The translations under genes were made by a program, and so were the position numbers. Shown piece by piece: positions 15,771-38,000 of a stretch of 64,000 nucleotides of DNA. Source of the stretch: Actinocorallia herbida (GTDB lineage Bacteria > Actinomycetota > Actinomycetes > Streptosporangiales > Streptosporangiaceae). The stretch covers positions 3,782,001 through 3,846,000 of the forward strand of contig NZ_RJKE01000001.1 in the NCBI RefSeq assembly GCF_003751225.1. The letters run 5' to 3'. Position 1 is the first letter of the stretch; each line of letters begins with the position of its first letter. The notes under the pieces were generated by a model, which was given only the letters and a program-made list of their open reading frames with translations, searched no databases and was not told the DNA's origin.

Positions 15771-15797
15771 CCCGCGCCGGACGACGCCCGCGGTCGG

Positions 15798-17358: not shown

Positions 17359-17388
17359 CCCTCCGCGCGGCGGCCTCCCGCGCGTCCC

Positions 17389-18576: not shown

Positions 18577-18685
18577 TCGGCTCTCCTTCATCGGGTGTGC
18601 CTGTGACCGTAGGGCCCAGAGACGGGACGACCAATGCCACGGAATCTTGATTTCATAAGCGATCGTCTTCCGCTAGCCTCGCCGC

Positions 18686-20002: not shown

Positions 20003-21904
20003 GTGAGAGCCGCATCCTCGCCGCTTGTCGAAGCGCTCAACTCCCTGGAGGCGCTGCGGGCGCCGCTCGTCGCGGGGACTCCGCCGCCCGTCGAGCGGAC
20101 GGCGGCGGTGCTGCGGATGGCACAGATCCTGAAACCTGCGGTGGAGGCGCACCGGGAGGCGCCCGATCCGGACAAGTACGCGGAGTTCCTTGCCGCGTTC
20201 GTCGAGAGCTGTCCGGTCACGTCGGCCGCGCTCGCCGGTGTGGATCTGGCACAGGCGGACGCGGACGGGGTGGGGAGAGACTGGCTGTCGGTGCTGGCCG
20301 CCTACTTGAAGGCCGTCGTCGCCGATTGGCCCGCGATCGAGGGGAAGGCGCCCGCGGGCACGCGGCGGCGGATCCTCGCCGGGATCCGCCGGGCCTGCGT
20401 CGTCCCGGTGTCCGGGCCGGGCGGCAAGGCGCGGCACCGCGTCCTCACCTCCGCCGACGTGCGGCAGAACGAGCCGGTCACGGTGCTGCGGCGGCGCGCG
20501 GTGCACCGGCTGCTCGGCGGGCGGTCAGGCACTCCGTTCGAGCTGTACACCTACACGCAGAAGCCCTACGCTCTGCCGTCGCCGCTGCCGAGCGAGCGAT
20601 CCGCCCTGGACGCCCTGGACCGGCTCGGCTTCGGCTGCGACCCGTCCTTCCTGCCCGCCTCCGAACGGGTCAGCGTGCTCGTCGCGATGACCGTGTTCGC
20701 CGGCTCGATCAACTCCGCGGACGACCGCGCGGAGCTCGTGCGGCGGCACCTCGTCCGGCCGGTCGAGGTGATCGTGCCGGGCGGCCGGGTCCGCTACGAG
20801 ATCACCGTGGAGCCCGGCGACCGTCCGCTGATGCGGGCGGACCGGCTGGGCGAGACCGGGATCCGGCCACCGGCCTGGGTGACGCCCGGCTCGGGTGTCG
20901 CGGCGGCGAAGCAGGGACTCGTCACGGCGCTCGGCCTTTCCGGGATGCCCGAGAAGGGCGGCCTGCCGTGGACCGAGGACCACGTCGGGTTCGTCGCGTC
21001 CGCGCTGGTCCGGCTGCCGGTGGCGGACCGGGCGGCGCTGCGCGGCGTCGCGCTCGTCCGGCACGCCGAGCGGCCCTCCACCGCGCCCGGTTCGGTGCAC
21101 GCGGCGTGCCTGCACGTCACCGAGCACGACATCGACACAGGGTTCCCCGCCCTCCCGCCGCCCCCGCACATCCACTGCTCGAACGCCGTCTTCACCGACG
21201 TCGACCTGACCTGCGCCGGGGCTCCTGGAGATCCCGCGCACGTCGGGGAGTTCACGGTCGCGCACGAGGCGGGGCACGCGGTCTCCCTCTGCTTCGACGC
21301 CGAGAATCGGGCCTCGATCGCCCGCCTGACCGTGGGTCTGCGCGGGTACCAGGACGCCCTGGCCCCGGTGCTGCCGTACGTCCGGCAGACCACGGCGAGG
21401 GCCGAGGCCTACAACGCCTTGGACGCGCTCCTCGGCCCGTTCGCCCAGGCGTACGGCCCCGCCATGACCGCCGACCGCGCCCTCGAGGAGGGAGACAGAA
21501 CCGGGTACGCCGCCGCGGTGCAGGCCTACGGCGGCTTCTACCAGAACGAGGCGAAGTGCGCCGCGGTGCTCAAGGCGGCCCAGGACGCGGACGCCCTCCT
21601 CGACGCGCCCCAGCGGATCTTCGAGAAGTACACCAAGGTCTTCGTCCGGCGGCACCGGCTCCTGCACGACCTGCTGTCGTCCGGAACCGCCGCGGCACTC
21701 GTCCGTTTCGCGACCTACGCGGACCGGATCGGCCTGCCTCGCCTGACCCATTACGCTGGAACCAACGTCCAGGAGTGGTTCGCCGAGGTCTACGCGCTCT
21801 TCTGCACCGACCGCGAACGCCTCTGGGAACTCGACTGGCGCCTCTGCCGCTGGCTGGAGGACGGCCGCCCGAAGATCGCCGACTACGACCCGGCCGCTCC
21901 CTGA
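20003..21904 (+). CDS. Large HEXXH protein, putative zinc metallopeptidase
   Basis: A 633-residue protein of unknown family. The motif VAHEAGHAV at about residues 419-427 (HEAGH 421-425) is a classical zinc-peptidase site, and QEWFAEVYALF (Glu591, Glu595) could supply the third ligand, as in gluzincin or lethal-factor-like peptidases. There is no signal peptide or transmembrane segment, so it may act in the cytosol or leave by a special route. The N-terminal 250 residues are helical and unfamiliar. GTG 20003 is chosen because GGAGGA lies seven bases upstream. It stands alone, with a strong hairpin after the stop. Confidence 0.7.
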   Translation: MRAASSPLVEALNSLEALRAPLVAGTPPPVERTAAVLRMAQILKPAVEAHREAPDPDKYAEFLAAFVESCPVTSAALAGVDLAQADADGVGRDWLSVLAAYLKAVVADWPAIEGKAPAGTRRRILAGIRRACVVPVSGPGGKARHRVLTSADVRQNEPVTVLRRRAVHRLLGGRSGTPFELYTYTQKPYALPSPLPSERSALDALDRLGFGCDPSFLPASERVSVLVAMTVFAGSINSADDRAELVRRHLVRPVEVIVPGGRVRYEITVEPGDRPLMRADRLGETGIRPPAWVTPGSGVAAAKQGLVTALGLSGMPEKGGLPWTEDHVGFVASALVRLPVADRAALRGVALVRHAERPSTAPGSVHAACLHVTEHDIDTGFPALPPPPHIHCSNAVFTDVDLTCAGAPGDPAHVGEFTVAHEAGHAVSLCFDAENRASIARLTVGLRGYQDALAPVLPYVRQTTARAEAYNALDALLGPFAQAYGPAMTADRALEEGDRTGYAAAVQAYGGFYQNEAKCAAVLKAAQDADALLDAPQRIFEKYTKVFVRRHRLLHDLLSSGTAAALVRFATYADRIGLPRLTHYAGTNVQEWFAEVYALFCTDRERLWELDWRLCRWLEDGRPKIADYDPAAP

Positions 21905-23838: not shown

Positions 23839-23883
23839 CACTATGCCCTATCGGGCATAGCGGGAGCGCTATAAGCATTATTC
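23839..23883 (+). promoter_or_regulatory. LysR-regulon box upstream of permease operon
   Basis: A 45-bp block that aligns without gaps to 28195-28239. Shared bases include ACTATG at the left, GCATA in the middle and GCATTATTC at the right. It holds the inverted repeats CTATGCCC/GGGCATAG and ATAGCG/CGCTAT. It lies 75 bp before the permease ATG. Confidence 0.65.
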
Positions 23884-23958
23884 GGGGCAATTCTACGGTG
23901 GCACGATTCACAAAACGCGGGCGGCGGTCGCGCCGCGACAAGTTTCCGGAGGCCCCCC

Positions 23959-25428
23959 ATGACCGACACTCGCTCCGACCGGCCGACACCCCAGGCAGGT
24001 GACGGCCTGCGGGCCGTGATCGAGGACCACGCACTCCAGCCTGTGCCCGACGACCAGCGGGTGAGCGGCTGGAGCCTCGTCTTCAACACCACGGGGGTCG
24101 GCACCACCCTCGTCATCCTGGCCATCGGCGGCGGCGTCACCTATGTCGCGGGCACCCGATGGGGACTCGCGATGGGCCTGGTGGCCGCCGTCTTCGGCTC
24201 GCTGCTCGGCTGGGCGATCGGCCGGGTCTGCCAGGTCGCGGGCACGTCCTCGACCGTGACCAGCCGGTTCTACGGGCTCGGCGCGCGCGGCTCGTTCCTC
24301 GCTTCGCTGATCTTCGCGTTCATGGTCCTCGGCTTCCTGGCCCTGGAGAACGCGCTCCTCTACTACGGCACGCTGTTCATGTTCGGGTGGGCCCCCACGA
24401 CGACGAACGCCGTCGTCATCTACGGGCTGCTTACCTTGGCCTGGGTCCTGCTGACGACCTTCGGCCTCAAACTCGTCCAGCGGACCTCCGCGGTGCTCAC
24501 CGTCGTGTCCATCGTGCTGGTGATCGTCGTGACCGGGATGGCGCTGGCGAAGTCGGACCTCTCGATCTCCGACATCTGGCTCTACACGCCGGAGAACCTC
24601 GGCTCGGGTGACGTCCTCACCGGGCTGAGCGCCATCGCGGGCATCGCCGGGGCGCTCTCCCTCACCGGGGCGGACTTCGGCCGCTACGCGCGCGGCTCCC
24701 GGGACGTCGGCATCATGGCGATCGGCGGCTCGATCGTCGTCAACTTCTTCGTCGTGGCGATCGGCACGATCATCTTCCAGGCCGGGAACTCCGTCGTGGC
24801 GACCTTCCTCGAGGACCCCGCGAACGCCGGCGCCGCGGGCACCATCCCCGGCGCGAGCACCGCCGAGAAGATCGCCTTCATGACCACGAGCGACGCGGGC
24901 GCCTACTTCATCGTGCTCGGCGGGGCCATCGGCTTCATCGTCATGTACGCCGCGCAGGCCAAGGCCCAGGTCATCAACACCTACTCCGGCTCGCTCGCGC
25001 TCTCGAACTTCTTCGACGCGACCACCGGCCGGGCCATCGGGCGCTTCTGGTGGGTGGTGATCGGCAACGTCATCGGCCTGCTCGCCGTCTGGGGCGACAT
25101 CCTCGGCTTCATCAACGGCTGGCTGGGCGCGCTCGGCATCCTGACCACCTCGCTGTGCACGCTGGTGATCGTCGACTTCTTCGTCGTCCGCAAGCAGGTC
25201 GCCGCGAGCACGGAGCGGGTCGAGAACTTCAACTGGGCGGGCATCGTCACGCTCCTCGCCGCCTCCGGGATCGCCTACGCCCTGGTGGAGGCCGACGTCA
25301 CCGGCCTCGGCTTCGCCGTGGCCCTGGTGCTGACCGCTATCGGCTACCCCCTGCTGCGGCGCGTGCTTCCCGAGGGGTCGTTCGGTGGCTTCGCCTCCAC
25401 CGCGACGGCACTGCACGAGGAGGAATAG
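23959..25428 (+). CDS. NCS1-family permease (nucleobase/heterocycle importer)
   Basis: A 489-residue membrane protein with about twelve hydrophobic helices, of the purine-cytosine/hydantoin/allantoin permease (NCS1) family. The family pattern includes GWSLVFNTTGVGTTLVILAIG near residues 36-56 and LTGADFGRYAR near 238-248. It imports flat nitrogen heterocycles with protons or sodium. The ATG at 23959 follows GGAGG. It is first in an operon with the RutA-like oxygenase and flavin reductase, and shares a regulatory block with the aminomuconate operon, so its substrate is probably the compound degraded there. Confidence 0.88.
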   Translation: MTDTRSDRPTPQAGDGLRAVIEDHALQPVPDDQRVSGWSLVFNTTGVGTTLVILAIGGGVTYVAGTRWGLAMGLVAAVFGSLLGWAIGRVCQVAGTSSTVTSRFYGLGARGSFLASLIFAFMVLGFLALENALLYYGTLFMFGWAPTTTNAVVIYGLLTLAWVLLTTFGLKLVQRTSAVLTVVSIVLVIVVTGMALAKSDLSISDIWLYTPENLGSGDVLTGLSAIAGIAGALSLTGADFGRYARGSRDVGIMAIGGSIVVNFFVVAIGTIIFQAGNSVVATFLEDPANAGAAGTIPGASTAEKIAFMTTSDAGAYFIVLGGAIGFIVMYAAQAKAQVINTYSGSLALSNFFDATTGRAIGRFWWVVIGNVIGLLAVWGDILGFINGWLGALGILTTSLCTLVIVDFFVVRKQVAASTERVENFNWAGIVTLLAASGIAYALVEADVTGLGFAVALVLTAIGYPLLRRVLPEGSFGGFASTATALHEEE

Positions 25429-25479
25429 CACCTTCCCCCTGAGATAACCCATAATCAGACACACATGAAAGGCAGCACG

Positions 25480-26595
25480 ATGACCCGACCGCTCTTCCAG
25501 GACACCGGCTTCAAGCTCGGCCTTTTCGCCGCCAACTGCTCCAGCGGGATGGCGATCACGAAGGCGCCGAGCCGGTGGTCGGGCAGCTGGCAGGACAACC
25601 TGCGCATGGCCAAGGTCGCCGACGAGGTGGGCATCGACTTCCTCCTCCCGATCGCCAGGTTCATCGGCTACAAGGGCGCGACGAACTTCCACGAGTCGGT
25701 CCTGGAGCCGATCCCGTGGGCGGCCGGGCTTCTGTCGGCGACCGAGCGGATCTCGGTGATCTCCACCGTGCACTCGGCCTTCAACCACCCGCTGGTGACG
25801 GCCAAGCAGATGGTGACGCTGGACCACATCAGCGACGGCCGGGCAGGGCTGAACATCGTGGCCGGGTGGAACAAGCCGGAGTACGACGCGATGGGCTCCG
25901 ACCTGCCGACCGGGCACGACGACCGGTACGAGCAGGCCCAGGAGTGGTACGACATCATCAAGAAGACGTGGACCACCGAGGGCTCCTGGGACCACGAGGG
26001 CCGCTTCTACCACCTCAAGGGCGCCGAAGGCATGCCCAAGCCCGTCGACGGCCTGCTGCCGATCATCAACGCCGGATCCTCGCCGCAGGGCCGGGGGTTC
26101 GCCGCCCGCAACGCCGACTTCGGATTCACCATCGTCGACGGCCCCGAGGACGCGGCGCGGATCACCACGGACATGCACGAACTCGCCCGTAAGGATTACG
26201 GCCGCGACCTCGGCGTCATCACGATCAGCCACGTCGTCGTGCGCGAGACCCAGAAGGAGGCCCGTGAGTTCTACGCGTGGTACGGAGACGAGAACGCCGA
26301 CTGGGACGCGGTGGACAACCTGATGTACCTCATGGGCGCGCACTCCCAGTCGTTCACGCCGGAGATGCTCCAGATGTACCGCAAGCGGTTCGCGGGCGGC
26401 CACGGCTCGGTCCCGCTCATCGGCACGCCCGACCAGATCGCCCTGCAGATCAAGGGCCTCGCCGACGCGGGCCTCGCCGGGATCACCATGGCGTTCTTCG
26501 ACTACGCCGACGAACTCCCCTACTTCGCCAAGACGGTCCTGCCGCGGCTGGCGGAGATGGGGATCCGCAGGCCGGTGGCCGAGGCGGCCTCGTGA
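25480..26595 (+). CDS. RutA-like LLM-class flavin-dependent monooxygenase
   Basis: A 371-residue bacterial-luciferase-like TIM-barrel flavoprotein. It resembles RutA, which opens the uracil ring with a flavin-oxygen adduct: note FHESVLEPIPWAAGLLSATERI, HISDGRAGLNIVAGWNKPEYDAMG and a late FFDYADELPYF. The reduced flavin would come from the reductase whose gene overlaps its stop (GTGA). The start at 25480 has GAAAGG upstream; an ATG at 25465 does not. In this context it may hydroxylate anthranilate or cleave a ring amide. The precise substrate is inferred, not shown. Confidence 0.85.
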   Translation: MTRPLFQDTGFKLGLFAANCSSGMAITKAPSRWSGSWQDNLRMAKVADEVGIDFLLPIARFIGYKGATNFHESVLEPIPWAAGLLSATERISVISTVHSAFNHPLVTAKQMVTLDHISDGRAGLNIVAGWNKPEYDAMGSDLPTGHDDRYEQAQEWYDIIKKTWTTEGSWDHEGRFYHLKGAEGMPKPVDGLLPIINAGSSPQGRGFAARNADFGFTIVDGPEDAARITTDMHELARKDYGRDLGVITISHVVVRETQKEAREFYAWYGDENADWDAVDNLMYLMGAHSQSFTPEMLQMYRKRFAGGHGSVPLIGTPDQIALQIKGLADAGLAGITMAFFDYADELPYFAKTVLPRLAEMGIRRPVAEAAS

Positions 26596-27071
26596 GGGTG
26601 GCTCCGCAGCTGTTCCGCGAGGTCGCCGGGCACTTCGCGACGGGCGTGTGCGTGGTGACCGCCGAAGACCCGGACACCGGGCCGCACGGGATGACCCTGA
26701 ACTCCCTGACGACCGTGTCGGCGGATCCGGCGACGTTGCTGATCTGCCTGAACCGGGCGAGCACCACCCACGAGGTGGTCGCCCGTGCCGGTCGCTTCGG
26801 CGTCAACATCCTCGCGGCAGGCCAGCAGGACGTCGCCGCGCTCTTCGCGACCCGCGACGACGACAAGTTCCGCGACCTCGACTGGACCCGCTCGCCCTCC
26901 GGCACCCCCCTGCTCACCGGCGGCGTCGCCCACCTCGAATGCGCGGTCCTGCACCGCCACGACGTGCACTCCCACACCGTCGTGATCGGCGAGGTGATCA
27001 CCGCCGCCGCCGCGGGCGGCCCCCCGCTGGTGTTCCACCGCAGCCGGATGTCCGCCCCGTTCCCCGGTTAG
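26592..27071 (+). CDS. Flavin reductase (NADH:FMN type)
   Basis: A 159-residue split-barrel flavin reductase (FRD/HpaC/RutF type). Motifs: HFATGVCVVTAED, GMTLNSLTTVSADPATLLICLN, FGVNILAAGQQDVAALFA and the C-terminal HTVVIGEV. It supplies reduced flavin to the monooxygenase upstream. GTG at 26592 overlaps the preceding TGA, giving translational coupling; a second GTG at 26598 is possible. Convergent with the LysR gene. Confidence 0.88.
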   Translation: MRVAPQLFREVAGHFATGVCVVTAEDPDTGPHGMTLNSLTTVSADPATLLICLNRASTTHEVVARAGRFGVNILAAGQQDVAALFATRDDDKFRDLDWTRSPSGTPLLTGGVAHLECAVLHRHDVHSHTVVIGEVITAAAAGGPPLVFHRSRMSAPFPG

Positions 27072-27102
27072 TTCGAAGATCGCGGCCACGGCGCGCGGCG
27101 GG

Positions 27103-28155
27103 TCACTCCGCCTCGCGCCGTTGCCGTCTCTGGCCCGGCCGGGAGGCGTCCGCGATCTCCTTCTCCAGGGCACGGGCCGCGGTGATGAGCTTGCGGATGA
27201 AGAGCTGGACGCTGGCGGGCTGCTCCGGGTCGTACCCATGGGCCCGGTGAAGGGATCCTGGAGAGCCCGGCTTCGCCGGGGAGCCCGTCACCGGGCCGGC
27301 GAGCGTGGTGATGCCGATGGCCCGGGGAACGGTGTCCAGGTCGGTGTCGAGGACCGTCAGGCCCGGGGTGTTGCGGCCGATGAGGACGGGGAGGGGCGCG
27401 ATGGCGTCGGTGGCGCGGAGGATGGCCTGGACGGTGAGGATGGTGGAGCACTCGATGACGTCCGAAGGCAGCGGGAGGTCTTCGGCGCGGAAGAGGTCGT
27501 CGATCTCGGCGCGCAGGAGGCTCGGCGCGTTCGGCAGGATCCACGGGTAGGCGAGCAGGTTCTTCAGGCCGCGTTCCTGCGCGTCGACGGCGGGGTGGCC
27601 CTGCCGGACGACGAGGCGGACCGGCTCGTCGTACAGGCGCAGCCGGCGCAGCGGCTCGGCGGCCGGATCGGTGCGGGGCTGCAACCGGCCGACGAGCAGA
27701 TCGACGTCGCTGCGGCCCAGCAGGGCCGTCAGCTCCTCGTTGCCCGCCTCGATCACGGTGACCGCGACGGTGGGGTGCTCCCGCTTGAGCTCGATGAGCG
27801 CGTTGGGGATGAGCGCGTAGGCCCCGGCGAGGTTGGTGCCCACCCGGACGGGTTCTAGCCCTACCCGCTGGAGTTCGCTGATCCGGACGCCCGCGGTCCT
27901 GATGTTGCCCAGCACGCGGTGGGCGTGCGCGATGAGGATCTCCCCGGCCGGGGTGGGCCGGACGCCGCGCGGGCCGCGGGTGAACAGCTCGACGCCCAGC
28001 GCCGCCTCGACCTCGCGCAGGCTCCGGGTGACCACCGGCTGGGTGACGTGCAGGACCTGGGCCGTGCGCAGCAGCGTGCCCTCGCGGGCGATCGTGGTGA
28101 CCAGGGTGAGATGGCGGAGCTTGAGCCGCCCGTCGAGGAGCCGTTCCGGATCCAT
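27103..28155 (-). CDS. LysR-family regulator with in-frame palindromic insertion
   Basis: A 350-residue LysR protein. The winged HTH is LRTAQVLHVTQPVVTRSLRE (about residues 27-46) and LGVELFTRGPRGVRPTPAGE, and the effector domain follows (residues 95-300). It resembles the PcaQ/GbpR-type regulators of aromatic catabolism. Near residues 288-305 an extra proline/glycine-rich segment VTGSPAKPGSPGSLHRAHG interrupts the last part of the effector domain; it is encoded by the 66-bp element at 27238-27294. The start at 28155 has GGGAGGG. It is divergent from the catabolic operon and presumably its activator. Confidence 0.88.
   Translation of the reverse strand: MDPERLLDGRLKLRHLTLVTTIAREGTLLRTAQVLHVTQPVVTRSLREVEAALGVELFTRGPRGVRPTPAGEILIAHAHRVLGNIRTAGVRISELQRVGLEPVRVGTNLAGAYALIPNALIELKREHPTVAVTVIEAGNEELTALLGRSDVDLLVGRLQPRTDPAAEPLRRLRLYDEPVRLVVRQGHPAVDAQERGLKNLLAYPWILPNAPSLLRAEIDDLFRAEDLPLPSDVIECSTILTVQAILRATDAIAPLPVLIGRNTPGLTVLDTDLDTVPRAIGITTLAGPVTGSPAKPGSPGSLHRAHGYDPEQPASVQLFIRKLITAARALEKEIADASRPGQRRQRREAE
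27238..27294 (+). repeat. Palindromic element copy inside LysR gene
   Basis: Aligns to the 66-bp unit of the sigma gene from ATGGGC onward; the right 31 bases are identical. It has the same orientation relative to the host gene but is read in a different frame: here it encodes PVTGSPAKPGSP, whereas in the sigma gene it encodes GDGLPGEAGLPK. Confidence 0.8.
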
Positions 28156-28194
28156 CCGCCCTCCCGCGCGCTTCACCTGAATACCCTGGCGTCT

Positions 28195-28239
28195 GACTAT
28201 GTCCTGGGAAGCATATCCAGACTCGGATAGGCATTATTC
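28195..28239 (+). promoter_or_regulatory. LysR-regulon box between lysR and catabolic operon
   Basis: The 45-bp partner of 23839-23883. It lies 30 bp before the cyclase start and 39 bp from the LysR start, the usual place for a LysR activation and autoregulation site. Short palindromes such as ATAGGCATTAT are visible. Confidence 0.65.
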
Positions 28240-28269
28240 ACCGCGCTTGATCACGGCCACGATGAACCC

Positions 28270-29076
28270 ATGACCAGCCCATACACCGCCGCGACCGCCC
28301 CCGGGATTCTCGGCGCGCTCGGCGCCGCGCTGCTGGACGGCTCCGTCGAGGTCGTCGACCTCACGGCGCCGCTGAGCGCCGCCACCCCGGTGCTGCCGCT
28401 GCCGCCGGGCATGGCCCCGATCCCGCCGTTCGCCCTGGAGGAACTCGCCAGGTACGACGCGGCGGGCGGCGACATCTCCTACCAGAACGGCCTGCACACC
28501 GGCGAGCACGTCGGGACCCACTTCGACGCCCCCTGCCACTGGATCACCGGGATCGACCACGGCGACGTCGCCTCGGTCCCCGTCGACCGGCTCGTCGCGC
28601 CCGCGGTCGTCATCGACGTCACCGCGCGGGTCGCCGAAGACCCGGACTTCGTTCTGCAGGTCGCCGACCTCCGCGCCTGGGAGCGCGAGCACGGGGGGCT
28701 CCCGCGCGGCTGGCTGCTCGTCCGGAGCGGCTGGTCGAGCCGCGGCGACGACCAGGCGGCGTTCCTCAACGCGGACGAGACCGGCCCGCACACGCCGGGC
28801 ATGTCCGCCGAGTGCGCGCGCTGGATCGCCGAGGAGACCCCGGTGCTCGGCGTGGGCGTGGAGACCATCGGCATCGACGCGGGCCTGGCGTTCGCCTTCG
28901 AGCCGCCGTTCCCGGCCCACCACCACCTCCTGGGCGCCGCCAAGTACGGCCTCACCCAGCTGCGCAACCTCGACCGGCTGCCCGTGACCGGCGCGGTGCT
29001 GGTAGGCGCGCCGTTGAAGATCGTGCACGGCTCCGGCAGCCCGGTCCGCGCGCTCGCGCTGGTCGCCCGCGGCTGA
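28270..29076 (+). CDS. Cyclase-family metal hydrolase (isatin hydrolase/kynurenine formamidase type)
   Basis: A 268-residue protein of the PF04199 'cyclase' family. The metal-binding signature HVGTHFDAPCH (HxGTHxDxPxH) is at about residues 80-90, with later conserved GVGVETIGID and PAHHHLLG. Known members hydrolyse isatin to isatinate or N-formylkynurenine to kynurenine, using manganese or zinc. It is the first gene of the six-enzyme operon that ends in aminomuconate metabolism. No clear ribosome binding site precedes the ATG. With a ThDP decarboxylase next to it rather than a kynureninase, isatin seems the better guess. Confidence 0.83.
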   Translation: MTSPYTAATAPGILGALGAALLDGSVEVVDLTAPLSAATPVLPLPPGMAPIPPFALEELARYDAAGGDISYQNGLHTGEHVGTHFDAPCHWITGIDHGDVASVPVDRLVAPAVVIDVTARVAEDPDFVLQVADLRAWEREHGGLPRGWLLVRSGWSSRGDDQAAFLNADETGPHTPGMSAECARWIAEETPVLGVGVETIGIDAGLAFAFEPPFPAHHHLLGAAKYGLTQLRNLDRLPVTGAVLVGAPLKIVHGSGSPVRALALVARG

Positions 29077-29123
29077 CACCGTCCCACCCCCTGCTCCGCC
29101 CCTTTAGTGAGGAACCTCCTGAG

Positions 29124-30764
29124 ATGCTTGTTCACGAAGCCATCGGTGACCACCTGGTGGACCTCGGTGTCCGCGCCGTCTTCGGCGTCGTCGGCAGCGG
29201 CAACTTCCACTTCACCCAGGCCATGGTGGAGCGCGGCGCCCGGTTCGTCGCCGCCCGGCACGAGGGCGGCGCGGCGACCATGGCCGACGCCTACGCGCGG
29301 ATGTCCGACGAGGTCGCCGTCCTGTCCCTGCACCAGGGCTGCGGCTACACGAACGCGATGACCGGGATCACCGAGGCCGCAAAGAGCCGGACCCCGCTGC
29401 TCGTGCTGACCGCCGAGGCGACCGCGCCCACCTCGAACTTCTTCATCGACCAGGCCGCCATGGCCGTGGCCGTCGGCGCGGTCACCCTGCGGGTGCGGAC
29501 CCCGCGGACCGCGCTGGAGGACATCGCCCGCGCCTACTCGATCTGCCGCGACCAGCGCAGGACCGTGGTCGTGAACGTGCCCATCGACGTGCAGGACATG
29601 GCGCTCGACTGCCTCAAGCCCCGGACCTTCCCGGCACCGGGGAACCCTGCCCCCGCGCCTCAGGCGCTCGCCGACTTCGTGCTCGCCCTCCAGCAGGCGA
29701 GCCGTCCGGTCTTCGTGGTCGGCCGCGGCGGCCGCACCGACGGCGCCCGCGCCGCGATCGGGGCGCTGGCCGACCAGGTCGGGGCCCTCGTCGCGACGTC
29801 CGCGGTCTCGCGCGGGATGTTCAACGACCACCCGTGGAGCATCGACGTGTCCGGCGGCTTCTCCTCGCCGTTGACCGCCGAACTCGTCTCCGGCGCCGAC
29901 CTGGTCGTCGGCTTCGGCTGCGCCCTGAACATGTGGACCATGCGGCACGGCAGGCTGATCGCCGACGACGCCACGGTGATCCAGGTCGACACCGACCCGG
30001 CCGCGCTCGGCCGCGTCCGCGAGATCGACCTCGGCGTCCTGGGCGGCGCCACCGAGACCGCGGCCGCCGCGCTGGGCGCGCTGCGCGACCTCGACGACAC
30101 CGCGCGGTCCGGCTACCGCTCGCCGGAGCTGCGGCGACGCATCGCCGAGGGCCTGCGCTGGACCCAGGTGGCCTACACCGACGCCTCGACCGGCGACCGC
30201 ATCGACCCGCGGACGCTCAGCTCCGCGCTCAACGACCTGCTGCCCGCCGAACGGGTCGTCTCGGTCGACTCGGGCAACTTCCTCGGCTACGCCTCGATGT
30301 ACCTCGACGTGCCCGACGAATACGGCTTCTGCTTCACCCAGGCCTTCCAGTCCGTCGGCCTCGGCCTGGCCACGGCGGTCGGCGCGGCGCTCGCGCAGCC
30401 CGGACGGCTCCCGGTGGCCGCGTGCGGCGACGGCGGGTTCCTGATGGGCATCTCCGAACTGGAGACCGTCGTCCGGCTGGGGCTGCCGATGCTCGTCATC
30501 GTCTACAACGACGCGCAGTACGGGGCCGAGGTGCACCACTTCGGCGCGGCCGCGCCCGGCATGGCCAATGTGCGCTTCCCCGACTCCGACCTCGCCGCGA
30601 TCGCACGCGGATACGGGTGCGACGCGCTGTCGGTCAGATCGCTCGCGGACCTCGCGCCCGTCAAGGACTGGCTGTCGGCCGGGCCGAAGCGGCCGCTGGT
30701 CATCGACGCGAAGATCGTCTCGGACGAGGGGGCCTGGTGGCTCCAGGAAGCCTTCGGGCACTGA
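29124..30764 (+). CDS. ThDP-dependent decarboxylase-like enzyme
   Basis: A 546-residue thiamine-diphosphate enzyme of the benzoylformate decarboxylase/acetolactate synthase superfamily. The catalytic glutamate is in ARHEGGAATMADAYAR (about residue 48), the central domain follows (FVVGRGGRTDGARAAIG), and the ThDP/Mg motif is CGDGGFLMGISELETV...YNDAQYG near residue 435. Placed after the cyclase, it could decarboxylate isatinate (2-aminobenzoylformate) to 2-aminobenzaldehyde, a close analogue of the benzoylformate reaction. This step is inference. ATG 29124 has a weak GAGGAA upstream; the gap after the cyclase gene is 47 bp. Confidence 0.85.
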   Translation: MLVHEAIGDHLVDLGVRAVFGVVGSGNFHFTQAMVERGARFVAARHEGGAATMADAYARMSDEVAVLSLHQGCGYTNAMTGITEAAKSRTPLLVLTAEATAPTSNFFIDQAAMAVAVGAVTLRVRTPRTALEDIARAYSICRDQRRTVVVNVPIDVQDMALDCLKPRTFPAPGNPAPAPQALADFVLALQQASRPVFVVGRGGRTDGARAAIGALADQVGALVATSAVSRGMFNDHPWSIDVSGGFSSPLTAELVSGADLVVGFGCALNMWTMRHGRLIADDATVIQVDTDPAALGRVREIDLGVLGGATETAAAALGALRDLDDTARSGYRSPELRRRIAEGLRWTQVAYTDASTGDRIDPRTLSSALNDLLPAERVVSVDSGNFLGYASMYLDVPDEYGFCFTQAFQSVGLGLATAVGAALAQPGRLPVAACGDGGFLMGISELETVVRLGLPMLVIVYNDAQYGAEVHHFGAAAPGMANVRFPDSDLAAIARGYGCDALSVRSLADLAPVKDWLSAGPKRPLVIDAKIVSDEGAWWLQEAFGH

Positions 30765-30799
30765 ACCGCGAGACACCGGACCCGAGGGAGTCATTCGAC

Positions 30800-32257
30800 A
30801 TGCGTGAATACCGCAACTACGTGGACGGCGAGTTCGTCGCCGGCGTCCGCACCTTCCCGGACGTCGACCCGGTGGACGGCACCGTCGTCGCCCGGGTCCA
30901 CGAGGCCGACGCCGGGCTCGTCGACCGGGCCGTGACCGCCGCCCGCCGCGCGCTCACCGGCCCCTGGGCCGCCCTGACGGTCAGGCGGCGCTGCGAGCTG
31001 ATGCGCCGGATCGCCGACGAGATCGACCGCCGCGCCGAAGACCTGCTCGACGCGGAGGTCCGCGACACCGGCAAACCGGAGCGGCGCGCCCGCGAACTGG
31101 ACATCGCCCGCGCCGCGGCGAACTTCCGGGTCTTCGCCGACGTGGTCGCCGCCGAGGGGGTCGAGTCCTTCCTCACCGAGTACGGCGAGGCACAGCGGGC
31201 GCTGAACTACGTCGTCCGCAGGCCGCTCGGCGTCGTCGCGGCGATCGTCCCGTGGAACCTTCCGCTGCTGCTGCTCACCTGGAAGCTCGCCCCGGCCCTC
31301 GCGCTGGGCAACACCGTGGTGGTCAAGCCGTCGGAAGAGACGCCCGGGTCGGCGACCGTGCTCGCCGAGGTCATGGCCGCGTGCGGCGTCCCGCCCGGCG
31401 TGTTCAACCTCGTCCACGGGTTCGGCAACGGGTCGGCGGGCCAGTTCCTCACCGAGCACGACGATGTCGACGGCGTGACGTTCACGGGCTCGTCGGCGAC
31501 CGGCGCGCGGATCATGGCGACCGTCGCGCCCCGGGTGAAGCCCGTCTCCTTCGAACTCGGCGGCAAGAACGCGGCGCTGGTCTTCGCCGACGCCGACCTC
31601 GACGCGGCGGTCGCCGGGCTCACTCAGTCGATCTTCGCCAACACCGGCCAGGTCTGTCTGTGCACCGAGCGCGTGTACCTCGAACGGCCGATCTTCGACG
31701 AGGTCGCCGCCCGGCTGACCGAGGCCGCCGAAGGGCTCAGGCTCGGCGCGCCCGCGGACCCCGCCACGACGACCGGCCCGCTGATCTCCCAGGCGCACCG
31801 GCAGAAGGTACTGTCCTACCTGGAACTCGCGAAAGCGGAAGGCGCCAAGGTCCTCACCGGCGGCGGCGTCCCCGTGATGCCCGAGCCGCTCGCGGGCGGG
31901 AGCTGGATCGAGCCGACGCTCTGGACGGGCCTGACCAACCGCAGCCGCGTCGTGCGGGAGGAGATCTTCGGCCCGGTCGCGGCGCTCATCCCGTTCGACA
32001 CCGAGGCCGAGGCGATCCGGCTGGCCAACGATTCGGACTACGGCCTCGCCGCCTCCGTCTGGACCACGGACCTCGCGCGCGGCCACCGGGTCGCGGCCCG
32101 CATGAACGTGGGCATCTCCTGGGTGAACACCTGGTTCCTGCGCGAGCTGCGGTCGCCGTTCGGCGGCGCCGGACTGTCCGGGATCGGGCGCGAGGGCGGC
32201 CGGCACTCCCTGGAGTTCTACACCGAGCAGACCAACGTCTGCGTGGCCCTCGGATGA
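30800..32257 (+). CDS. 2-Aminomuconate semialdehyde dehydrogenase-like aldehyde dehydrogenase
   Basis: A 485-residue NAD-dependent aldehyde dehydrogenase. Motifs: PWNLPLLLLTWKLAPALALGN, the glutamate in SFELGGKNAALVF, and the nucleophile Cys286 in FANTGQVCLCTERVY. The GQVCLCTERVY pattern and SWVNTWFLRELRSPFGG tail are typical of the 2-aminomuconate/2-hydroxymuconate semialdehyde dehydrogenase group (AmnC, NbaE). It would oxidise aminomuconate semialdehyde to 2-aminomuconate. The context, with dioxygenase, ACMS decarboxylase and deaminase genes downstream, supports this strongly. It might also oxidise 2-aminobenzaldehyde. Confidence 0.88.
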   Translation: MREYRNYVDGEFVAGVRTFPDVDPVDGTVVARVHEADAGLVDRAVTAARRALTGPWAALTVRRRCELMRRIADEIDRRAEDLLDAEVRDTGKPERRARELDIARAAANFRVFADVVAAEGVESFLTEYGEAQRALNYVVRRPLGVVAAIVPWNLPLLLLTWKLAPALALGNTVVVKPSEETPGSATVLAEVMAACGVPPGVFNLVHGFGNGSAGQFLTEHDDVDGVTFTGSSATGARIMATVAPRVKPVSFELGGKNAALVFADADLDAAVAGLTQSIFANTGQVCLCTERVYLERPIFDEVAARLTEAAEGLRLGAPADPATTTGPLISQAHRQKVLSYLELAKAEGAKVLTGGGVPVMPEPLAGGSWIEPTLWTGLTNRSRVVREEIFGPVAALIPFDTEAEAIRLANDSDYGLAASVWTTDLARGHRVAARMNVGISWVNTWFLRELRSPFGGAGLSGIGREGGRHSLEFYTEQTNVCVALG

Positions 32258-32283
32258 GGGCCCTACCGAAGGAAGAGCACACC

Positions 32284-33075
32284 GTGACCAGCAACGACGA
32301 GGCGGTGAAGGCGGCCGCGGACCGGTTGCACGAGGCCGTCGAGACCGCACGCCCGATCATCGACGACGGCACCTGGCCGGACCTCGACCTCGCGCAGGCG
32401 TACGCCGCGCAGGCGGATCTCGTGGGCCGCAGGCTCGCCCGCGGCGAGCGGCAGAGCGGGCTCAAGCTGGGCTTCACCAGCCTGGCCAAGATGGCGCAGA
32501 TGGGCGTCTCCGAGATCATCGCGGGGCGGCTCACCGACGCGATGGCGGTCCCCGACGGCGGCACGCTGGACGTCGCGGGCCTCATCCACCCGCGGGTCGA
32601 GCCGGAGATCTGCTTCCGGGTCGCCAGGGACGTCGACCTCGCGGACGGGCCCGAGGCGCTGCTCGCGGCGGTCGACGCGGTCGCGCCCGCGCTCGAGGTG
32701 ATCGACTCCCGCTACGACGGGTTCAGTTTCGACCTGCCGCGCGTGGTCGCCGACAACACTTCGGCGGCGGCGTACGCGATCGGCCCCTGGTCGGCGCTGG
32801 ACCGCGCCGGGATCGGCGACCTCGCCGTCTCCATGGAGCTGACGGACGCGCCCACCACGCGCGGGAGCACCCAGGCGATCCTCGGCGATCCGCTCGACGC
32901 GCTCCGCCGTCTCGCCGCCATCGGCGCGGCGCACGGCTTCACGATCCACGAGGGTGAGCTCGTCCTCGCCGGTGCCGCCACGGCGGCCGCGCCCCTGCCG
33001 CTCGGAACGGTTCGGGTCGCGGTGGCCACGCTCGGCGAGGTCGCGATCACCGTGGTCGACGGGCGGACGCCGTGA
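32284..33075 (+). CDS. 4-Oxalocrotonate decarboxylase/2-oxopent-4-enoate hydratase family
   Basis: A 263-residue member of the hydratase/decarboxylase branch of the fumarylacetoacetase superfamily. Typical motifs: [32 protein letters not shown] with metal-binding glutamates, and [16 protein letters not shown]. In aminomuconate pathways two such enzymes exist, the decarboxylase and the hydratase; only one is here, and its position before the deaminase favours the decarboxylase. The start is GTG 32284 after GAAGGAAGAG. The stop overlaps the RidA gene (GTGA). Confidence 0.83.
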
Positions 33076-33509
33076 GCGGCGTCGTCGCCGGGATGGCCGT
33101 CCCGCGCGGGAGGTTCCCGCACGTCAAGGTCGTCGGCGATCTGATCTTCGTCTCGGGGACCAGCAGCAGACGGCCGGACAACGGCTTCGCCGGCGCGTCC
33201 GTCGACGCGATGGGCGTCACCGACCTCGACATCCGGGCGCAGACCCGCGCGGTGATCGAGAACATCCGGGCGATCCTCGCCTCCGTCGGCGCCGGACTCG
33301 ACGACCTCGCGCAGCTCACCGCCTACCTGGTGAACATGAACGACTTCGGCGGCTACAACGAGGTCTACGCCGAGTACTTCGACGAGTCCGGCCCGACCCG
33401 GACGACCGTCGCCGTCCACCAGCTGCCGCACCCGCTGCTGCTCATCGAGATCCAGGCCGTCGCCGTCCGGCCGAAGCCCGGCCCCACCACCGACCAGGAG
33501 CAGTCATGA
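33072..33509 (+). CDS. RidA-family 2-aminomuconate deaminase
   Basis: A 145-residue RidA/YjgF-like protein. Conserved parts: [18 protein letters not shown], the helix [27 protein letters not shown], and the C-terminal [10 protein letters not shown]. In the 3-hydroxyanthranilate route a RidA-type enzyme (AmnD/NbaF) hydrolyses 2-aminomuconate to 4-oxalocrotonate and ammonia. Both ends overlap the neighbouring genes by four bases, so translation is tightly coupled. Confidence 0.87.
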
Positions 33510-34030
33510 CCGAGATCCCCCCTGTCTTCAACTTCGAGAAGTGGGTCGCCGAGCACGCCGACCAGCTCAAGCCGCCGGTCAACAACCAGCAGATGTGGGA
33601 GCCCGCCGGCGACTTCATCGTGCAGGTCGTCGGCGGCCCGAACCAGCGCACGGACTACCACCTCGACCCGTACGAGGAGTGGTTCTACCAGGTCAAGGGC
33701 GACATGCACATCAACCTGATGACCGACGACGGGCCGCGCCGCGTCGACGTCCGGGAGGGCGAGATGTGGATGCTGCCGCGCGGTGTGCACCACTCGCCGC
33801 AGCGTCCGGAGCCCGGCTCGATCGGCATCGTGATCGAGCGGATCCGTGAGACGGGCACCCTGGAGAAGTTCGTCTGGTTCTGCCTCGACTGCGACGCGCA
33901 GGTGCACGAGGTCGAGCTCCAGGTGCAGGACATCGTCGCCGATCTGCCGCCGGTCTTCGAGCTGTTCTACGGCTCCACCGAGGCCCGGACCTGCCGCGAC
34001 TGCGGCGCGCTGCACCCCGGGAAGGGCTGA
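33506..34030 (+). CDS. nbaC: 3-Hydroxyanthranilate 3,4-dioxygenase
   Basis: A 174-residue cupin dioxygenase that opens the ring of 3-hydroxyanthranilate to 2-amino-3-carboxymuconate semialdehyde. It begins [22 protein letters not shown], as in the family. Iron ligands are His52 and Glu58 ([13 protein letters not shown]) and His96 ([10 protein letters not shown]). The C-terminal CxxC pairs (CLDCD and CRDCG) form the rubredoxin-like iron site of the bacterial enzyme. The length matches bacterial HAO. The ATG overlaps the RidA stop. This is the surest anchor for the function of the operon. Confidence 0.93.
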
Positions 34031-34037
34031 GGCGGAC

Positions 34038-35021
34038 GTGACGAGCAGCATCGACGTCCATTCCCACTACGTGCCGAGGGGCTGGCCCGCGCTTCCCGGA
34101 GATGAGGCCCCGCGCCTGGAGGTCCGCAGTGAGCGCGAGGCGATGATCATGGTGGGCTCGAAGGAGTTCCGCCGGATCACCGCCGAGGCGTGGGATCCCG
34201 AGGTCCGGCTCGCCGACATGGACGCCGACGACGTGGCGGTCCAGGTGGTGTCGCCCACCCCGGTGTTCTTCTCGTACGGCGATGACCCCGCGGACGCGGC
34301 CAAGGTCTCCCGGATCTTCAACGAACTCGCGTTGGAGATCACCGACGCGTCGGACCGGTTGATTCCGTTCTGCCAGGTGCCGCTCCAGGACACCGACGCG
34401 GCCTGCGCCGAACTCGAACGGGCGATCGCCGACGGCCACGCCGGCGTCGAGATCGGCAACCACGTCGGTGACCGGGACCTCGACGACGCCGGAATCCGCA
34501 CCTTCCTCCAGCACTGCGCCGCCCTCGACGTCCCGGTCTTCGTGCACCCGTGGGACATGCCGTCCGCCCCGCGCCTCGACCGCTGGATGGCCCAGTGGCT
34601 CACCGGCATGCCCGCCGAGACCCATCTGTCGATCCTGTCCCTGGTCCTCGGCGGCGTCTTCGACGACGTCGACCCCAGGCTCCGGATCTGCTTCGCGCAC
34701 GGCGGCGGCTCGTTCGCCTTCTGGCTGGGCCGCATGGACAACGCCTGGCGCGAACGCTACGACGTCATCGGCACCTCGATCCATCCACCGTCCCATTACA
34801 CCGACCGCTTCTCCGTCGACTCCGTCGTCTTCACCGAACCGTCCCTCCGCCTCCTCGTCGACACCCTCGGCCCGGCGCAGGTGATGGTAGGCGGCGACTA
34901 CCCCTACCCCTTGGGCGAACGCCCCGTGGGCCGCGTGGTCCGCGACGCGTCCTTCCTCACCGACCCCCAACGCACCCAGATCCTCCGCACCAACGCCGAA
35001 CGCTTCCTGGCCCGCCCCTGA
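34038..35021 (+). CDS. nbaD: Aminocarboxymuconate semialdehyde decarboxylase (ACMSD)
   Basis: A 327-residue amidohydrolase-fold decarboxylase. The HxH motif is DVHSHYVP at the N-terminus; HPWDMP, FAHGGGSFAFWLGR and GGDYPYPLGE follow, all characteristic of ACMSD. It converts 2-amino-3-carboxymuconate semialdehyde, made by the dioxygenase upstream, to 2-aminomuconate semialdehyde. The GTG at 34038 is 8 bp after the dioxygenase stop. Last gene of the operon; a strong hairpin follows. Confidence 0.92.
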   Translation: MTSSIDVHSHYVPRGWPALPGDEAPRLEVRSEREAMIMVGSKEFRRITAEAWDPEVRLADMDADDVAVQVVSPTPVFFSYGDDPADAAKVSRIFNELALEITDASDRLIPFCQVPLQDTDAACAELERAIADGHAGVEIGNHVGDRDLDDAGIRTFLQHCAALDVPVFVHPWDMPSAPRLDRWMAQWLTGMPAETHLSILSLVLGGVFDDVDPRLRICFAHGGGSFAFWLGRMDNAWRERYDVIGTSIHPPSHYTDRFSVDSVVFTEPSLRLLVDTLGPAQVMVGGDYPYPLGERPVGRVVRDASFLTDPQRTQILRTNAERFLARP

Positions 35022-35096: not shown

Positions 35097-38000
35097 TTGA
35101 CAGGCGTCTCGCGGGAAACCGATGCTGGTGCGGTGACGGTCCCGGGCTGGGCGATCCCGCTGATCTTCGGGTTCCTTCTCGCGGTCTTCCTCGCCGTCCA
35201 CCGGCCGGCCGGAGCGCCTCGCGCAGCGCGGGTGCTCTTGGCGGGCCCGAGCGCGGTCTTCCTCACCGGTGCCGTGTCCTGCTTCGGATATCTGAGCGAC
35301 GGCTGGGACGACGTGGGCGTAACGGGCGCGGGCACGGCGGCGGGCGTCCATCTCGCGGTCGTGGTCCTGGTGATGGTCGGCGCCGCAGACGTGGTGGCGC
35401 GGACGCCGAGCGGAGTCCCGCCGCCCTTCCTCTCCGATGAGGAGCGCCGCCTCCTCTCCCGGCGGCCACGGCGGTGGAGGCGGGCACGGCTCCTGGCGGA
35501 GGCGTCCGCGCTGCTGCTCATCGGGGTCGGGATGCCCGCGGAGGCCCGGTGGTCGTTCCTGGGGGGCCTGGCCTGGGTCGCGGGCGGCGCCCTCGCGGTG
35601 TGGATCGCCCTTTCGGCCTTGGCCGGGCTGCGGCTCCGGCGGATCGCCGGGGCGGCCGCGGCGGCGCCCGCCGGGTCCACCGCGATCGCGGAGCTGATGG
35701 CCGAGAGGGAGGCGGTCGAGGCCGCCGGGCTCGACGATCTCGCCGCGGTGGACCGCAAGATCGAGGTGCTCCGCCGGCTGAGCGCGGCGGCGCCGGGCAG
35801 CCTCGAAGTACAGGTCCCGGTCCTCTACGACCTGTCGACCGCGGTGACCGTCCGGTACGGGTTCACCGGAGAGCGGACGGACCTGGACGAGGCCATCGAC
35901 CTCGGGCGGCAGGCCCTGGCCATCTGCCCGGCGGGCCACTTCAACCGGTACCTGCGCCGGTCGACGCTCGCGTCGAACCTGGCGGCCAGGGCCCACCTCG
36001 GCCCTGACGACCAGGACATCGAGGACGCGGTACGGATCGCCGAGGAGTCCGTCGCCGAGACGGAGGGCGGTGCTCCGGTCGCGGCGGGATGGGCGTCGTC
36101 GGACCTGTCCGACGTGCTCCTCGAGCGCTACCGCCTCGGCAGGCACCGGGCCGACCTCGACTCGGCCGTCGAGGTGGCTCGGGCGGCCCTGCGGAAGCAC
36201 CCGCCCGGCCCCGAACGGCGGGTCACCGTGCAGCGGTCCCTGTTCAACTGCCTGCGGCAGCGCTACGCGGACTTCGGCGATCCGGCCGACCTCGACTACT
36301 CCGCCGCGACCGTGCGCGCGAGCCTCGACGCCGCCACCCGAGAGGGCGCCGACCCCACCGACCACCTGACGTCTTTCGCGCTCGTCCTCGGCGAACAGGC
36401 CGCCGCCCGGTTCGACCGGGCCTTCGCCGACGAGGCGGTCGACCTCCTGACCCGGGCCCTGAACGACGCGGGGGAGTCCCCCGCTAACCGGGCGCTGCTG
36501 CTCGCCGCGCTCGGAGGAGTGCGCACCTCCCGGTTCGAACTCTTCGGCGACCTCTCCGACCTCGACCGGGCGATCGACCACGGCCGGGAGGTCCGCACCC
36601 TCTGCGCCGCCGCCTCCCTGCCGGTGGAGACGCACAATCTGGCCACCAGGCTCAGCACCCGCTACGACGTCCTCCTCCAGATCCCCGACCTCGCCGAGGC
36701 GATCGAACTGGAGTCCGGCGTCATCGCCGGGACGCCCGAGGGCGCGGACCCCGACGCGTCGGTCCTGTCCAGCCAGGGCGTCAACCTCCGGCTCCGGTTC
36801 GAGCTGACCGGCGCCGCGTCCGACATCGATGCCGCGGTCGGGTTCGGGCAGGCGGCCGTGGCCGCCGCCCAGCCGGGCGACCACGGGATCAGCCTCTTCC
36901 TGTCGGTCCTGGGCGACAGCCTCATCAAGCGGTTCGAGGCGGCCGGGGATCCCGCCGACCTCGACGAGGCGGTGCGCGTGTGCCGGGAGGCCACCACCAC
37001 TCCCCGGCCATCCGCCGACGACCCGACCCGGGCCAGGGCCTTCGACCACCTCGCCACCGCCCTCCAGACCCGGTTCGACCTGCACGGTCGCCTCGCCGAC
37101 CTCCGCGATTCCCTGGTCGTCCAGCGACGGGCGGTCGCGCTGAGCCCCGAGGACTCCCCGGCATGGGGCATGCACCAGTTCAACCTGGGCCTGGGGCTGG
37201 AGCGCGAGTGGAAGCGGACGGGCGACCCGGCGACGGCGCGGGAGGCCGTCTCCGCCTGGCGGCGGGCCGTGGCCCAGGAGGAAGGGCCCGCGCAGGCGCG
37301 CATCAGGTCCGCCGTCGCCTGGGCCCGGGTGTCGGGCCGCCTGGCGGACTGGGCCGCCGCCACCGACGCCTTCGAAGCGGCGATCGACCTGCTTCCCCTG
37401 GTGGGCTGGCGCGGCCTCGAAGCCGCCAGCGCGGAGAACGCGCTGTCCCATTGGCGGCTGCTCGCCAGCCACGCGGCCTCGGCGGCGGTGCAGTGCGGGC
37501 AGCCGGAACGCGCGGTGGCGCTGCTGGAACGCGGCCGCGGTGTGCTGTGGTCCCAGGTGCTGGAGACGCGCTCAGAACTGGACGGCCTCCGTGCGGTCGA
37601 CCCCCTCCTCGCCGAGGAGCTGTCCGTCGCCCGCCGGGCTCTCGACCGGGATCCCGAGAGCCCGGGCGGGCACGATGCGGCCCGCTCCGTCCGGCGCATG
37701 GCCGCGGCCCGCGACTGGGACCGGCTCGTCGCGCGGGTTCGCCGGATCCCCGGATTCGGCGCCTTCCCCGGCCCTCCGGCCCCGCCCGACCTGACCGGCC
37801 TCGCCGACGAGGGCCCCATCGTGTTCCTCAACGCCAGCCCGATCAGATGCGACGCCATCGTCCTCACCACGGCGGGACCGCGGGTGGTCCCGCTGCCGTC
37901 TTTGTCGATCGAGACGCTCGTGGAAAGAGCGAACGAGTACGTCGCCGCCCTCTTCGCCTTCGAGACCGGAAACCGGGGCCTCGCCGACGTCGTCCGGGTC

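Follow-up and report, generated by a model that had tools for sequence, protein, structure and literature searches.

A predicted LysR-linked regulon of two operons in Actinocorallia herbida that may feed an isatin-type ring into the 3-hydroxyanthranilate meta-cleavage pathway

The DNA considered here is a 64,000-nucleotide stretch of the Actinocorallia herbida genome (NCBI RefSeq assembly GCF_003751225.1, contig NZ_RJKE01000001.1, positions 3,782,001 to 3,846,000 of the forward strand), referred to below as the window. Open reading frame (ORF) calls and profile searches place ten plus-strand genes at positions 23959-35021, arranged as two tandem operons around a divergent LysR gene, and every gene named in the original prediction, an earlier reading made from the letters alone, was recovered at its position. 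Genomic context supports well the view that this single regulon feeds an isatin-type N-heterocycle into the 3-hydroxyanthranilate pathway. The features are as follows:

23841-23883, plus strand: predicted bipartite operator 1, upstream of the permease operon, an inverted repeat CTATGCCC-N4-GGGCATAG followed by GCATTATTC
23959-25428, plus strand: NCS1-like permease, weakly assigned (TIGR00800 33 bits, cut-off 353) and with no Pfam match at 0.001
25465-26595, plus strand: luciferase-like flavin monooxygenase (LLM; PF00296 192 bits) with RutA-type dioxygen residues L61, T101, N130-x-V132 and F221
26592-27071, plus strand: flavin reductase, partner of the LLM (PF01613 152 bits)
27103-28176, minus strand: LysR-family regulator between the operons, PcaQ-like and under the PcaQ cut-off
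28197-28239, plus strand: predicted bipartite operator 2, between the LysR gene and the cyclase operon
28270-29076, plus strand: cyclase of the isatin hydrolase family (PF04199), with the metal ligand motif and with Ser70-Tyr71-Gln72 instead of the pocket Trp-x-Trp
29124-30764, plus strand: thiamine diphosphate (ThDP)-dependent enzyme of the 2-oxo-acid decarboxylase/acetolactate synthase superfamily, a proposed (hydroxy)isatinate decarboxylase
30800-32257, plus strand: 2-aminomuconate 6-semialdehyde dehydrogenase (AMSDH; TIGR03216 780 bits, cut-off 693)
32284-33075, plus strand: 4-oxalocrotonate decarboxylase-like protein of the FAH/hydratase family (TIGR03218 188 bits, cut-off 351)
33072-33509, plus strand: RidA-family protein, a proposed 2-aminomuconate deaminase (TIGR00004 77 bits, below cut-off)
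33506-34030, plus strand: 3-hydroxyanthranilate 3,4-dioxygenase (HAO; PRK13264 259 bits, cut-off 220) with two CxxC motifs
34038-35021, plus strand: aminocarboxymuconate semialdehyde decarboxylase (ACMSD)-like amidohydrolase, proposed to have that activity (PF04909 120 bits)

The LLM and flavin reductase genes overlap by 4 bases, and the intergenic gaps in the long operon (28270-35021) are -4 to 47 bases. Both promoters carry the pattern CTATGYCCTN5GCATA-N15-GCATTATTC at the same spacing. As the pattern was built from the two sites themselves, what was tested is its uniqueness rather than the match: at up to three mismatches it matches the window twice, exactly in both cases, and 100 shuffles give no match, and with its first base removed it finds only these two sites in the 9.8-Mb genome at up to three mismatches, while a control with the reversed pattern finds none. 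A private two-operon regulon is therefore very likely, and the co-regulation put forward in the original prediction rests on firmer ground than had been claimed; since the operator is unique to both promoters, the alternative of independent neighboring operons was set aside. We infer that the LysR protein binds the operator pair, as we infer every substrate and the order of the steps discussed below; relatives of this regulator (38 to 56% identity) lie beside other HAO or cyclase/ThDP operons.

The lower pathway for 3-hydroxyanthranilate, as originally predicted, is supported by two enzymes that pass curated cut-offs. HAO does so in a second model as well (TIGR03037, 221 bits against 146), and AMSDH exceeds the cut-off of TIGR03216, a model of 2-hydroxymuconic semialdehyde dehydrogenase; its best solved relatives are the AMSDH chains 7bzv, 4u3w, 4npi and 4i1w, for which reason a role as a dedicated 2-aminobenzaldehyde dehydrogenase was rejected. 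In a tree, the window dehydrogenase clusters with those of Nonomuraea-like cyclase/ThDP operons, within a wider group of enzymes from 3-hydroxyanthranilate operons. The remaining proteins are placed less directly: the decarboxylase-like protein scores best with 2-oxo-3-hexenedioate decarboxylase among four families, though under its cut-off, and the ACMSD-like protein is placed by its PF04909 match and its position in the HAO operon, with no NCBIfam match at 1e-20. Relatives of the ACMSD-like protein (49 to 74%) occur in most HAO operon loci, and those of RidA reach 69 to 79% among the matches listed. By family and gene order, the decarboxylase, RidA and ACMSD-like proteins would all fit the lower pathway, and genes for a hydratase-like protein, an acetaldehyde dehydrogenase and an aldolase lie clustered together elsewhere in the genome.

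The cyclase was predicted to be of the isatin hydrolase type, and this holds for its family: its best solved relatives are isatin hydrolases (E 1.7e-74 to 1.7e-66). Kynurenine formamidase was rejected as its role, since it scores 34 bits with TIGR03035 (cut-off 223) and the KynB chains match far more weakly (3e-5 to 1.4e-4); a kynureninase gene is present in the genome, outside the regulon. Isatin hydrolases have been defined by a pocket motif Trp-x-Trp or Phe-x-Trp together with a GLQC/GLAS motif (PMC6117287, in excerpt). The Mn ligands His69, His73 and Asp75 of isatin hydrolase (HxxxHxD) are kept in the window cyclase, in GEHVGTHFD at residue 78, and all three metal-site residues, two His and one Asp, are present in all 25 aligned cyclases (those with at least 120 bits and at least 35% identity, from loci longer than 5 kb). 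The pocket differs, reading S70-Y71-Q72; Ser and Gln occupy these positions in 5/5 members of the window branch and Trp occupies both in the 20 others. The second motif reads GLTQ in the window, which is not distinctive, as GLTQ or G(L/V)TS is also found in the other cyclases, except for one (L094; L and G numbers are our labels for loci and genomes) with GLQC. The altered pocket motif weakens isatin itself as the substrate. We read the pocket change as the loss of the isatin clamp, which would favor a more polar ring, and a 7-hydroxylated ring is a serious alternative substrate: it would lead directly to 3-hydroxyanthranilate, and would thus explain why HAO accompanies relatives of the cyclase in which no hydroxylase is visible.

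These relatives form a small group. The nearest ones to the window pair (68 to 73%) occur in three of the 54 genomes of the genus of G229, taken as Nonomuraea from a 72% match to a Nonomuraea gerenzanensis record, and on pLRE138 (L093), a plasmid of Rhodococcus erythropolis; the five cyclases make up one branch with a support of 100/100. HAO lies in the same gene run as the cyclase and ThDP genes in G229 and G613, and a 3-hydroxyanthranilate operon is adjacent to the pair on pLRE138. Beside the pair, the branch relatives carry genes for an ABC transporter, a thiolase, a CoA ligase, an aldehyde dehydrogenase and proteins of Asp/Glu racemase-like, OsmC/Ohr and alcohol dehydrogenase types. In 24 other HAO operon loci that served as a control (20 loci plus 4 plasmid records), no cyclase and no LLM was matched at 1e-12 and no ThDP match exceeded 27%; the link to the cyclase and ThDP genes is thus not usual for HAO, and among the loci opened it is confined to this small branch. 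The LLM had no match at 1e-12 in eight stretches from the four nearest relatives, three of them HAO-linked. In a search at E 1e-60 that scored few candidates per genome, 29 of 249 genomes gave an LLM match and G229 was not one of them; none of the 70 plasmid records with such a match came from Rhodococcus. These searches did not extend to G609, G613 or the Rhodococcus chromosome.

Several observations on this branch can be added. Operons resembling the iad auxin degradation genes (L093; L063, L064 and L102; L167 and L168; L169) contain an ABC transporter, a thiolase, a CoA ligase and Asp/Glu racemase-like and OsmC/Ohr proteins, with HAO in or beside three of the four, and these operons are candidates for the breakdown of 7-hydroxylated oxindole auxin catabolites. 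On pLRE138, the cyclase/ThDP cluster includes an enzyme of the AMSDH family (L093 14576-16018; TIGR03216 461 bits, below cut-off) that lacks the NFR and FLRELR stretches of the window AMSDH, which we take to hold the substrate arginines of AMSDH, and it may oxidize the aldehyde that the ThDP enzyme makes. G229 carries three HAO genes in one genome.

The pairing of cyclase and ThDP enzyme extends well beyond this branch. Relatives of the ThDP enzyme at E of at most 1e-90 were found in 141 of the 249 genomes of the order, and a cyclase gene adjoins the ThDP gene in 14/17 ThDP loci, chosen from the better matches and not at random, and in three of four annotated plasmid loci. At three loci (L065/L103, L076/L104 and L096, the last on a Deinococcus psychrotolerans plasmid), the cassette lies beside genes of 2-aminobenzoyl-CoA type, that is, an AMP-binding CoA ligase and a bifunctional salicylyl-CoA 5-hydroxylase/oxidoreductase, whose model was checked at L065 (1227 bits) and L096 (1288 bits, cut-off 1078); the family of the latter presumably includes the 2-aminobenzoyl-CoA enzyme. 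This suggests that the product of the pair enters anthranilate metabolism, and supports the view that the pair in general probably converts isatin to anthranilate, isatinate being the substrate of the ThDP enzyme. The originally predicted coupling of the ThDP enzyme to isatinate decarboxylation is, on this evidence, a reasonable idea. As to its family, the enzyme does not reach the cut-off for benzoylformate decarboxylase (PRK07092, 173 bits against 493), and in a search at E 1e-218 across 394 genomes of the class, only the source genome matched. Another cyclase-ThDP pair, whose cyclase has Trp-x-Trp, lies elsewhere in the source genome (G000:C1:9518679-9521111; L068 8680-11112), and its surroundings show no sign of an LLM, an HAO or a CoA-pathway gene. 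At L066, L067, L069, L071-L074 and L077, the cassette is often near another gene pair, represented by two protein clusters of 9 members each, which look to us like dihydroxyacetone kinase subunits.

The LLM is the sole oxygenase-family protein among the regulon genes besides HAO, and its assignment as RutA-like could be retained only loosely: it carries the RutA dioxygen motif, but scores 153 bits with RutA (TIGR03612, cut-off 498), behind SfnG (192 bits) and NtaA/DmoA (157 bits), all below their cut-offs. An AlphaFold model (mean pLDDT 75.6) is closest to structures of SfnG and, among others, RutA, at about 24 to 27% identity. Leu65, Thr105, Asn134, Val136 and Phe224 of RutA correspond to L61, T101, N130, V132 and F221 of the LLM, which are kept in 43, 44, 44, 41 and 44 of 44 aligned rows, so that the LLM agrees with the RutA-type N5-peroxide motif at its L/F, T/S, NxV and F/L/Y positions, the A position being left out of the comparison. 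This motif goes with flavin-N5-peroxide chemistry, and HcbA1, a member of the N5 class, oxygenates the ring of hexachlorobenzene in a reaction described as nucleophilic aromatic substitution (PMC7662398 and PMC8234197, both in excerpt). The motif would be an awkward fit to an electrophilic attack on anthranilate, which disfavors 3-hydroxylation by the LLM but does not exclude it.

Relatives of the LLM at 61 to 66% lie in three loci (L038 and L082 of G185, L039 and L182 of G221, and L090, with G185 and G221 being close kin), each with a Trp-x-Trp cyclase, a 41 to 42% ThDP enzyme and a bicupin beside the LLM. The bicupin of L090 scores 309 bits with gentisate 1,2-dioxygenase (cut-off 442) and 285 bits with 5-aminosalicylate 1,2-dioxygenase (cut-off 650), and those of G185 and G221 are 75 to 77% identical to it; the clusters are candidates for an isatin-anthranilate-gentisate route. 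All three (in L090 at 2560-20416) encode a nitrilase-type protein too, and those of G185 and L090 also FAH-type and Asp/Glu-racemase/arylmalonate-decarboxylase-type proteins. In two loci from freshwater actinobacterial metagenome-assembled genomes (L084 6943-12134 and L088 3009-8195), an amine-oxidase-type FAD protein, a flavin reductase, the LLM and an OYE-family reductase are divergent from a Trp-2,3-dioxygenase-like gene (PF03301 106 bits in L084, 94% identical in L088). Outside the window, eleven loci carry an LLM of at least 60% identity (L038-L040 and L083-L090), three of them with the cyclase and ThDP genes, two with the dioxygenase-like gene and six with neither in the stretches examined, three of these six being contigs shorter than 5 kb; the LLM thus recurs around tryptophan, isatin and anthranilate genes and is not tied to HAO. 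For L083, L084, L086, L088, L089 and L097, ORF lists were used, the gene caller being poor on low-GC loci. More distant relatives (54 to 58%) were uninformative, as all 12 loci (L041-L052) share one neighbor cluster, which reads like an AraC-family protein. The two HpaB-type hydroxylases above cut-off in the genome, of a type to which the Geobacillus anthranilate hydroxylase would also belong and whose fold differs from that of luciferase-type enzymes, were considered and dropped, since the stretches around them (L139 and L140) hold no cyclase, ThDP, HAO or LLM match at 1e-12. As for the permease, five plasmid-borne relatives (39 to 41% identity) were found, and both of the two contexts opened contain a 4-HPA-hydroxylase-type protein, a VOC protein, RidA and a flavin reductase, which makes import of aromatic nitrogen compounds a plausible role.

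Our preferred reading, to which we give a probability of roughly 45%, is that one LysR regulon imports an indoline-2,3-dione (isatin)-type ring and breaks it down via 3-hydroxyanthranilate, the ring being oxygenated before it is opened. The NCS1-like permease would bring the ring compound in, and the LLM with its flavin reductase would oxygenate the bicyclic ring to a 7-hydroxyisatin-type intermediate, the oxygen of which becomes the 3-hydroxyl of 3-hydroxyanthranilate. The cyclase would then open the lactam by hydrolysis to (3-hydroxy)isatinate, and the ThDP enzyme would decarboxylate this 2-oxo acid to the aldehyde, which could be converted to 3-hydroxyanthranilate by the enzyme encoded at 30800-32257, by a chromosomal enzyme or by the ThDP enzyme itself, as the regulon has no dedicated second aldehyde dehydrogenase. 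For meta-cleavage and the steps that follow, the cell would use HAO, ACMSD, AMSDH, RidA and the decarboxylase of the regulon; the hydratase, aldolase and acetaldehyde dehydrogenase would come from genes at another place in the chromosome. Several points weigh against this sequence of events: (i) in the bicupin loci, a hydroxylation of anthranilate would be needed, for which the LLM is the obvious candidate; (ii) 7-hydroxyisatin is proposed from pocket residues and neighborhood, and other polar lactams would fit; (iii) ring opening may precede the LLM step, or the LLM may hydroxylate no ring at all, and in the relatives that lack it the hydroxyl may have another source; (iv) G609, a member of the same cyclase branch, has no HAO on its 13.6-kb contig; (v) at three of the 17 ThDP loci, the ThDP gene has no cyclase gene next to it; (vi) the ThDP enzymes of the window branch differ from the others at only three positions in the same kind of comparison, with little sign of a changed substrate; and (vii) nine Variovorax iad genes, among which the excerpted account names no ThDP enzyme, are reported to suffice for anthranilate (PMC12633357), so that the route past the cyclase can sometimes do without one.

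In the route originally predicted, isatin is imported, hydrolyzed, decarboxylated and oxidized to anthranilate before the LLM and its reductase hydroxylate C3. We consider it unlikely, although several points speak for it: the regulon offers no oxygenase besides HAO other than the LLM, the Trp-x-Trp loci with a bicupin would require 5-hydroxylation of anthranilate near a close LLM relative, 3-hydroxylation (Geobacillus) and 5-hydroxylation (Nocardia opaca) of anthranilate are known activities (PMC4539516, in excerpt), and HcbA1 brings aromatic rings within the reach of the N5 class. It is opposed by the conserved N5-peroxide motif, which suggests nucleophilic rather than electrophilic oxygen chemistry, by the HAO-linked cyclase/ThDP relatives without an LLM in the stretches examined (and in G229, within the limits of that search) and by the loss of the isatin pocket motif. 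The same relatives would fit an imported compound that is already hydroxylated, such as a 7-hydroxyoxindole from plant auxin breakdown, with the LLM carrying out another upstream step, for example oxidative opening or carbonyl oxidation. For this proposal, which we hold to be rather improbable, speak the tie between HAO and this cyclase/ThDP branch, the CoA ligase, thiolase and dehydrogenase neighbors of the kinds known from the iad auxin pathway (PMC12633357, in excerpt) and the record of 7-hydroxy-oxindole-3-acetate from plants; on the other hand, the window lacks a CoA ligase or thiolase, so that the substrate would need to lack the acetate side chain, and a hydroxylase could be encoded at some other place in the genomes of the branch relatives.

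A further alternative, in which the operon of permease, LLM and reductase acts on a different, RutA-like substrate of pyrimidine type and simply happens to lie next to the HAO operon, is very improbable. The RutA score and the NCS1-like permease would suit such a role, but the operator is shared by both operons and unique to them, the LLM is below the RutA cut-off, no RutB-, RutD- or RutE-type protein is among the regulon genes, and the two permease relatives opened, of five, lie in aromatic meta-cleavage-type clusters. A more far-reaching reading can be offered as a tentative and doubtful one: the LLM would be the missing aromatic hydroxylase of actinobacterial isatin/anthranilate catabolism, supplying HAO with the 3-hydroxy product here and, in the related clusters, a gentisate-type dioxygenase with a 5-hydroxy one, and the cyclase and ThDP enzyme of the HAO branch would be a 7-hydroxyisatin hydrolase and a 3-hydroxyisatinate decarboxylase.

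These assignments would bear on gaps noted in the literature. In the iad auxin pathway, compounds of the isatinate formula (C8H7NO3) and of C7H7NO precede anthranilate, and the excerpted account leaves the steps from the IadI product to anthranilate without an assigned gene (PMC12633357); for decarboxylating isatinate in that gap, the ThDP gene paired with the cyclase in actinomycetes and in Deinococcus is a direct candidate. A review from 2018, in the part excerpted, called the enzyme of the anthranilate-to-gentisate branch unreported and asked that the isatin hydrolase genes of indole degraders be identified by function (PMC6221969); the LLM/bicupin clusters are candidates for this branch. 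If the altered pocket does accept a 7-hydroxylated ring, these operons would in addition be candidates for the means by which bacteria break down hydroxylated oxindoles, among them 7-hydroxy-oxindole-3-acetate, a plant auxin catabolite. Among the papers listed, none describes this pathway in its title or the start of its abstract, in a search with subscription journals mostly outside its coverage, and a possible connection to mycemycin biosynthesis was dropped, there being no link beyond shared words. Elsewhere in the window, an ORF of 1257 residues (35097-38870), which looks to us like a repeat plus CHAT-type protein, lies immediately downstream of the ACMSD-like gene, and four tRNA genes (Trp, Arg, Met and Asn) are located at 1525-2008.

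The regulon shares with other 3-hydroxyanthranilate meta-cleavage operons the set of HAO, AMSDH- and ACMSD-like genes, RidA and decarboxylase, present in most of the loci listed; it differs from them in being headed by the cyclase and ThDP genes and in having no hydratase, aldolase and acetaldehyde dehydrogenase of its own, while 15 of the 24 other HAO loci carry kynurenine genes of kynureninase and/or monooxygenase type and nine do not. The cyclase matches the isatin hydrolases LaIHA, LaIHB and RsIHA (5NNA/5NNB, 4J0N and 5NMP) in family, length and metal ligand motif, and departs from them in both signature motifs, with Trp-x-Trp or Phe-x-Trp replaced by Ser-Tyr-Gln and GLQC/GLAS by GLTQ. The ThDP enzyme belongs to the same superfamily as benzoylformate decarboxylase, which it matches at E of about 1e-27 among chains of the Protein Data Bank (PDB), where other ThDP enzymes are nearer to it. 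With the pyrimidine oxygenase RutA and the dimethylsulfone monooxygenase SfnG, the LLM has in common the fold, the RutA dioxygen residues and a separate flavin reductase, despite the low identity and scores under both cut-offs. The Geobacillus anthranilate hydroxylase, an FAD-dependent enzyme with an FAD reductase, would give the same product from anthranilate (PMC4539516, in excerpt). According to the excerpted account of iad auxin degradation in Variovorax and Bradyrhizobium, that pathway likewise involves a compound with the formula of isatinate and an amidase of the cyclase family, IadI, which bears the annotation kynurenine formamidase; it differs in ending at anthranilate, with no ThDP gene named, and its Rieske system IadCDE, ligase IadF and thiolase IadG have no counterparts among the genes of the two operons, going by the gene list given there (PMC12633357).

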